Shown in pieces: positions 9,973-10,655 of a stretch of 64,000 nt of DNA. Below the pieces are notes generated by a model. It saw nothing but the letters and a program-made list of their open reading frames with translations. It did no database searches and was not told the origin of the DNA. The position numbers and the translations under genes were made by a program. The stretch lies in the NCBI GenBank assembly GCA_949293415.1, contig CASFDK010000044.1, positions 62,001-126,000 on the forward strand, in the 5' to 3' direction. This DNA is from an uncultured Verrucomicrobiota bacterium (GTDB lineage Bacteria > Verrucomicrobiota > Verrucomicrobiia > Opitutales > Intestinicryptomonadaceae). The stretch's first letter is position 1. Each line of letters starts with the position of its first letter.

Positions 9973-10311
9973 ATGAAAACTCTTTTCGAGAAAATACTCG
10001 ACGGCGAGATTCCCTCGAAGATTGTTTACCGCGACGATGTTTGCGCCGCGATAAACGACATCAATCCGCAGGCACCCACCCACGTGTTGCTCTTCCCCGT
10101 CAAGCCCATTGAAAGGCTTGCCAAAGCGGAGGATTGCGATGCCGAAATTCTCGCCCACTTGATGCTCACCGTTCCCAAGATCGCCAAGCTTTGCGATTTG
10201 GACGACGGGTTTCGGGTTGTCATAAACAATGGGCTGATGGCGGGCGAAACTGTCCCGCACCTGCACATACACATCCTCGGAGGCCGCCCCTTCCACTGGC
10301 CCCCCGGCTGA
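9973..10311 (+). CDS. HIT family protein (HINT-like purine nucleotide hydrolase)
   Basis: A 112-residue protein of typical HINT length. It starts with TLFEKILDGEIPSKIVYRDD and ends with the histidine triad PHLHIHILGGRPFHWPPG, in which the central histidine is the nucleophile. Family members hydrolyse nucleoside phosphoramidates such as adenylylated lysine; the cellular substrate is not known. The stop codon directly touches the first copy of a structured tandem repeat. Confidence 0.92.
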   Translation: MKTLFEKILDGEIPSKIVYRDDVCAAINDINPQAPTHVLLFPVKPIERLAKAEDCDAEILAHLMLTVPKIAKLCDLDDGFRVVINNGLMAGETVPHLHIHILGGRPFHWPPG

Positions 10312-10462
10312 GCAAAGGCGAAGCCCTTGACGCCCGAACTCCGTTCGGGAGTTGTGATGCTGCGGAGGCAACTATAGTTGCCTCCTTTTCTGTATAAGGT
10401 CGCATTGCTTCGCAATGGCTTTGTTTGCTCGAACTTATTTTGTTTGTTGCCGAAACCAAATA
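10312..10462 (+). repeat. Structured intergenic repeat, copy 1
   Basis: About 150 bases made of successive hairpins: CCCGAAC-TCC-GTTCGGG (10333-10349), a perfect 22-base palindrome with half-site GGAGGCAACTA (10364-10385) followed by TTTTCTGTATAAG, CATTGC-TTC-GCAATG (10403-10417), and a CGAAC...GTTTG stem near 10430-10446. The same order, flanked by the same unpaired blocks, recurs in copy 2 immediately downstream. The strand is arbitrary. No open frame of credible coding quality is present. Confidence 0.85.
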
Positions 10463-10655
10463 GCAAAAGGCGAAGCCCTTGACGTCCGAACTTCGGGCGC
10501 GAGCCGCGCCAGTCGTCGGAACTTCGTTCCTTCTTGTGATACTTCGGCGCGACTATAGTCGCGCCTTTTCTGTATAAGTTCGCATTGAACGGCGGAACAC
10601 CGTTCAATGGCTTTGCTGTTTCGAACTTATTTTGTTCGTTTCCGAAAACTATTTG
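10463..10655 (+). repeat. Structured intergenic repeat, copy 2
   Basis: About 190 bases. Conserved blocks shared with copy 1 include AGGCGAAGCCCTTGACG, TTGTGAT, CCTTTTCTGTATAAG, TCGCATTG and CAATGGCTTTG. The central palindrome is now half-site GGCGCGACTA (10546-10565), and the next hairpin is CATTGAACGG / CCGTTCAATG (10583-10609), so paired positions differ from copy 1 but remain paired. Extra small hairpins (GGCGCG-AGC-CGCGCC and GGAAC-TTC-GTTCC) sit in its first part. About 100 bases of unremarkable AT-richer DNA then lead to aroK. Confidence 0.85.

Follow-up and report, generated by a model that had tools for sequence, protein, structure and literature searches.

The window, a 64,000-nt stretch of the draft genome of a gut bacterium of the Opitutales (Verrucomicrobiota), carries two hairpin-rich sequences side by side between a HIT-domain gene (PF01230, 9973-10311) and a shikimate kinase gene (PF01202, 10756-11319), all on the forward strand. 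The first begins at the base following the native TGA stop of the HIT gene (10309-10311), raising the question of what kind of element this pair represents and how it came to abut a coding sequence so exactly.

Architecture and pairing of the two copies

A sequence-only reading of this DNA had described two adjacent, diverged, hairpin-rich copies at 10312-10655, located between the HIT gene and aroK, and sequence, coordinates and gene assignments all agree with it. Copy 1 (10312-10462) and copy 2 (10463-10655), both members of a dispersed element family, are ~80% identical in aligned columns, copy 2 having an extra 30-nt hairpin module and a longer second hairpin. The two copies have the unpaired blocks TTGTGAT, CCTTTTCTGTATAAG and CAATGGCTTTG in common, and CCTTTTCTGTATAAG occurs nowhere else in the window (0.05 occurrences expected). 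When folding is compared with that of 200 shuffled sequences, both copies beat all of them (z of -4.6 for copy 1 and -3.8 for copy 2).

Each copy starts with a string of small hairpins, a feature that the sequence-only reading had passed over together with the stop-codon position and the terminator-like T-run. As read from the sequence, those of copy 1 are CAAAGGC-GAA-GCCCTTG (10313-10329) and CCCGAAC-TCC-GTTCGGG (10333-10349), both found again in other copies. Copy 2 comprises AAAGGC-GAA-GCCCTT (10465-10481), the module GGGCGCG-AGC-CGCGCC (10495-10510), which has no counterpart in copy 1 and recurs in L003, L008, L018, L022 and L024, and GGAAC-TTC-GTTCC (10518-10530), which recurs in many copies. 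The ensuing hairpin A has a terminator-like stem and is an exact palindrome in both copies, as had been claimed, GGAGGCAACTA/TAGTTGCCTCC around a TATA loop in copy 1 (10364-10385) and GGCGCGACTA/TAGTCGCGCC in copy 2 (10546-10565), both arms changing from one copy to the other. It is followed in each case by the T-run TTTTCTGT (10386-10393 and 10566-10573). Hairpin B also has exact arms, CATTGC-TTC-GCAATG in copy 1 (10403-10417) and CATTGAACGG-CGGAACA-CCGTTCAATG in copy 2 (10583-10609), and is enclosed by a putative outer stem, ATAAGGTCG/CGAACTTAT with one mismatch in copy 1 (10394-10438) and ATAAGTTCG/CGAACTTAT in copy 2 (10574-10630).

The proposal that pairing is kept while sequence changes is borne out by the family alignment, in which 90.8% of cells are paired, as compared with 85.9% after shuffling, and 56 cells are changed on both sides, as compared with 25.0, these counts not being independent events because the copies are related. 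Sliding the pairing partner lowers pairing to 29.8-44.6%. For hairpin A, 218 of 252 cells are paired (181.6 +/- 5.9 shuffled), and nearly all double changes sit in four of its columns, within the CTATAG palindrome, where GC/CG, CG/GC, GC/AU and AU/GC alternate. Hairpin B grows and shrinks symmetrically, exhibiting CATTG-CTTCG-CAATG, CATTGGC-TTT-GCCAATG, CATTGAGCGGCG-GAA-TGCCGCTCAATG and other forms. The outer stem is paired in 89% of cells with no compensatory change in the family, and is therefore not supported. A last stem, CGAAC with GTTTG or GTTCG, was rejected, since it is not conserved: other copies have TTTTGCAGA, TTTTGAGAC and further variants at that place, and the same CGAACTTAT pairs instead with the upstream ATAAGTTCG. 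Two of the three proposed stems, hairpins A and B, are thus supported. The copies of a genome from another genus (G018) keep the unpaired blocks CTTGTG..ACTTCGG, CCTTTTCTGT and CGCATTG, within flanks reading TTGTGTTACTTCGG...CCTTTTCTGTTTTTA...CGCATTG, yet their hairpin A stems differ from those of the window genome and are nonetheless perfect (GGCGCGGAGCCCCGCGCC, GGCGGGTTGGTCAACCCGCC); this is independent support for kept pairing.

Hairpin A is a stable, GC-rich hairpin (median stem energy of -14.5 kcal/mol over 39 copies) with a T-run directly after it, at least 5 T being found within the 8 bases on its 3' side in 34 of 39 copies, and therefore looks like an intrinsic terminator. Both window copies come out as terminator-like in a terminator scan; the T-run of the family is shorter than that of ordinary terminators in the same genome. 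Ending transcription is a candidate function of hairpin A.

A dispersed family in three of nineteen genomes

BLAST of the interval against its own genome (G000, 2.32 Mb in 52 contigs) returns 78 segments over many contigs. A covariance model was built from 39 full copies and used with a cut-off of E <= 0.01 on 19 family genomes, namely the window's own and 18 relatives, all of them draft assemblies in which loci were read as sequence stretches around the matches. It reports 70 matches in the own genome, 7 in a congener (G004) and 16 in G018, of the same family, and none in the 16 other family genomes, hence 3 carriers out of 19. Copies in related genomes, whose existence had been left for checking, are therefore present as homologous forms. 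A pattern scan of named genomes points to just two carriers, the Opitutales MAG SIG75 and the yak-abomasum MAG RGIG9302, whose identical sequences make it probable that they are G004 and G018; one further match, in Microbulbifer, was discarded as a chance coding match.

The family is modular. Its older subfamilies are devoid of the 5' mini-hairpins and start with TTTTTTATATCTGTG. The element ends read GCAAAGG, GCAGGC or TTTTTTATATC at one side and CCGAAAC at the other, an end sequence also being given as TTTTTTATAT..., and some copies at unrelated loci are 92-98% identical over large parts. Further tandem copies occur at L051, L027 and L157, and at L161 and L165 one copy interrupts another (GCGCGGCA|TTTTTTATATCTGTG). 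Searches of the window family itself for a target-site duplication, a terminal inverted repeat or a transposase found none, Rfam returned nothing credible for the window copies at either gathering or permissive scores, and phages, plasmids and viral contigs gave no match to the element.

Two local observations concern the surroundings of copies in the own genome. Four of them (L018, L043, L050 and L025) have a common 3' flank of up to ~300 nt, 77-98% identical and often at contig ends, so that a larger parental unit exists. Moreover, older-subfamily copies seem by eye to be clustered beside genes with PEP-CTERM-anchor-like ends (L157, L159, L160, L162, L164 and L166), ordinary terminators being found just past the element at these loci.

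Stop codons and unrelated families placed alike

Genes around the copies were called with a simple hexamer gene caller, which missed at least one gene (L016), and the element boundary was set objectively as the leftmost base similar to other copies. A sense gene lies upstream of 30 of 49 copies; none was called for the other 19, which therefore could not terminate an upstream gene. In 18 of the 30, the boundary falls between -14 and +1 nt from the stop of the upstream gene, the small negative values being taken to mean that the alignment continued by chance into coding sequence; another 3 have a gene that continues into the element, and 2 have their boundary at +6 and +10. At L006, L022 and L044 of the own genome, the upstream frame enters the element, and its final residues and stop are element-encoded. 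Orthologues in G005, G004 and G001 have matching C-terminal residues (such as ENNLWFGGKVDFGF, SAPHDIIEIKQPSK and LDISSKPPATIEWE, each directly before the stop), which shows that most of these genes retain their native stop codons. At the same gene ends, relatives mostly have ordinary intrinsic terminators ~5-60 nt past the stop (such as CCGCGGGCGCCTGCGCCCGCGGTTTTTTTT in G005), and the HIT orthologues of 12 congeners have no element at the gene end. The stops beside elements are TAG in 15 of 22 cases by hand count, as compared with 16 of 44 window genes (P = 0.0024).

A tRNA-Leu gene neighbours one copy (loci L049, L036 and L056; anticodons TAG, CAA and TAA) in each of the three carrier genomes, and in two of them, G004 and G018, the copy abuts the 3' end of the tRNA. 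A search of the literature for stop-codon-abutting repeats or Opitutales palindromes returned nothing matching.

Sister genomes contain families that are placed in the same way. In G001, a family unrelated in sequence to that of the window (TTTGGCGAATGCTTTTGG... / TTTGGCGAATGC..., L169-L201) ends in its own strong terminator, AACGAACCTCTCATGGGAGGTTCGTTTTTTT, and locally forms tandem arrays of ~171 nt. A stop triplet stands immediately before 25 of its 32 copies (24 are TGA); 18 of these triplets close frames of at least 100 codons, as compared with 9% of all stop triplets at the same loci. A third family, in G004 (TTTTTTATATGACGGGCACCGG...), makes up the ~105-bp inverted ends of a ~610-bp non-coding element; six loci (L227, L228, L243, L244, L252 and L255) carry it, in both orientations, with 93-96% identity across the ~370-bp interior. 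These inverted terminal repeats contain a terminator, for which four different perfect 7-bp stems surround one conserved loop, AA(A/G)GC(G/A)TT, and at several loci the ends of the element come within 0-10 nt of a stop or themselves provide the TGA. The 610-bp element has clearly moved. Two intervals between its repeat copies were inspected for an autonomous parent, and contain host-like ORFs only, with no obvious transposase.

Origin of the elements and comparison with known systems

The reading that best accounts for these data, with a probability of roughly two in three, is that the window pair belongs to species-specific, non-autonomous hairpin-string elements that spread over the chromosome, replaced 3'-end terminators and are kept by selection on their hairpins. 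The element core consists of a GC-rich hairpin with its T-run, then a second hairpin of variable length, with optional mini-hairpins at the 5' side. Copies would have spread over the chromosome, as suggested by their dispersal, by the nested and tandem copies and by the G004 sister element with inverted terminal repeats, and we infer from this that the window family is mobile. They sit mostly at gene 3' ends, from the stop codon onwards and in place of the ordinary terminator of relatives, and their most likely role at these sites would be to stop transcription and to cap the mRNA at its 3' end. Selection on hairpin formation, whether of the RNA or of single-stranded DNA while it is transferred, would keep the arms complementary as their sequence changes. 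Several points weigh against this reading: neither a target-site duplication nor a terminal inverted repeat nor a transposase came up for the window family, 19 of the 49 copies have no sense gene called upstream, the T-run is short beside those of ordinary terminators, and the assemblies are drafts.

The boundary at stop codons possibly reflects targeting, unless any 3' UTR left over is strongly selected against. Dispersed hairpin repeats are nothing unusual, but random insertion plus selection does not easily account for three families, unrelated in sequence and found in sister species, that start exactly at native stops. A further-reaching proposal is that a mobile system of this clade of gut Opitutales inserts base-precisely at coding 3' edges (stop codons, in places also the 3' ends of tRNAs) and has thereby given each species several unrelated hairpin/terminator cassettes instead of its native 3' UTRs. 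This stop-codon-targeting, RAYT-free transposition or retro-copying, undescribed before, is put forward tentatively, and no reverse transcriptase was found in the own genome, a draft from which multi-copy genes can drop out. Targeting, if real, would imply an unknown mechanism by which gene ends are recognized; selection, if it acts instead, would show the strength of the constraint on 3' ends. Either way, a whole gene set has exchanged its 3' UTR or terminator for a repeat.

An immobile origin was also weighed, in which ancestral terminators or 3' UTRs were homogenized within each species by gene conversion (concerted evolution). Element-bearing gene ends are indeed partly common to species despite the different sequences, 4 of ~13 examined G001 orthologues carrying the G001 element, and stems are exchanged as whole units with conserved loops. 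However, in G005, the relative with the most similar HIT protein, the gene ends in question have ordinary terminators or are element-free, the HIT gene end lacks the element in every other genus member examined, and both the nested copies and the G004 inverted-repeat element indicate insertion, making gene conversion rather unlikely.

The strong covariation, the unpaired blocks conserved even in another genus, the 3'-UTR position and the terminator-like hairpin would also suit small RNAs processed from mRNA 3' UTRs, starting at the stop codon and present as many paralogues, all the more since the families of other species end in clear terminators, such as AACGAACCTCTCATGGGAGGTTCGTTTTTTT in G001. 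Such a functional non-coding RNA family is nevertheless quite improbable: the elements have no Rfam match and are limited to 3 of 19 family genomes, they show the copy number, modular 5' parts, truncations and tandem arrangement that repeats typically have, and hairpin B lies beyond the presumed terminator.

The earlier proposal of "a structured RNA or a REP/MITE-like element family", which did not choose between the two, stands as to a dispersed, structure-keeping family and falls as to a known RNA family, and it falls likewise as to REPs in the strict sense, moved by a RAYT (Y1) transposase. GTAG-tagged REPs with RAYT transposases are present, and abundant, in Opitutus terrae, a Verrucomicrobium (PMC3733652), and the window elements are extragenic palindromes as well. 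Against this, no Y1_Tnp match is found in the own genome and its 18 family relatives (0/19) while control genomes are positive, no constant GTAG tag marks the ends, and a length of 150-190 nt with several hairpins contrasts with the 20-40 bp of REPs, so that a RAYT origin is most improbable. Integron attC-like recombination sites, imperfect palindromes that also closely follow stops and are homogeneous per species, are a far-fetched alternative, since what lies upstream of the copies is in each case an individual native gene, on many different contigs, and not a cassette array, and by eye the copies lack an RYYYAAC...GTTRRRY end pair. Decayed coding DNA or an assembly artefact, which the many copies near contig ends might evoke as in assembly-breaking repeats, is contradicted by homologous copies in the independently assembled SIG75 and RGIG9302 and by palindromes with compensatory changes, and can be dismissed.

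The preferred reading of spreading, non-autonomous hairpin elements files the window family among the non-autonomous interspersed hairpin repeats, a known kind. Like ordinary intrinsic terminators, it offers in hairpin A a hairpin and T-run in the sense orientation at 3' gene ends, where relatives have their terminator; unlike them, it is a repeated, conserved unit of 100-200 nt with further hairpins on both sides. MITEs are likewise non-autonomous, non-coding and dispersed, and the MITE-like nature is supported mainly by the G004 sister element with its long terminal inverted repeats, whereas neither these, nor a target duplication, nor a parent transposon was found for the window family. REPs share with it the extragenic palindromes and a presence in a Verrucomicrobium, but differ by their GTAG tag and Y1 transposase and by the absence of its multi-hairpin architecture. 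The pneumococcal BOX and SPRITE repeats were compared by architecture alone, from the passages of PMC3049150 drawn on here. According to these, BOX elements are short, interspersed and modular, with optional hairpin units, and SPRITEs resemble Rho-independent terminators, with an 18-bp stem and a long U-rich tract, and are enriched at 3' ends where upstream regions are undisturbed. The window family resembles both as short interspersed elements, BOX in its modularity and SPRITE in its terminator look. It departs from SPRITE by an 8-9-bp stem and by a short T-run beyond which lies a second hairpin, and from both by belonging to a different phylum, with no shared sequence known and with a stop-codon boundary that those passages do not describe for either. 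On the best reading of this analogy, its closest relatives in kind would be the modular BOX and the terminator-like SPRITE, along with the GTAG REPs, and its behaviour would be BOX/SPRITE-like.
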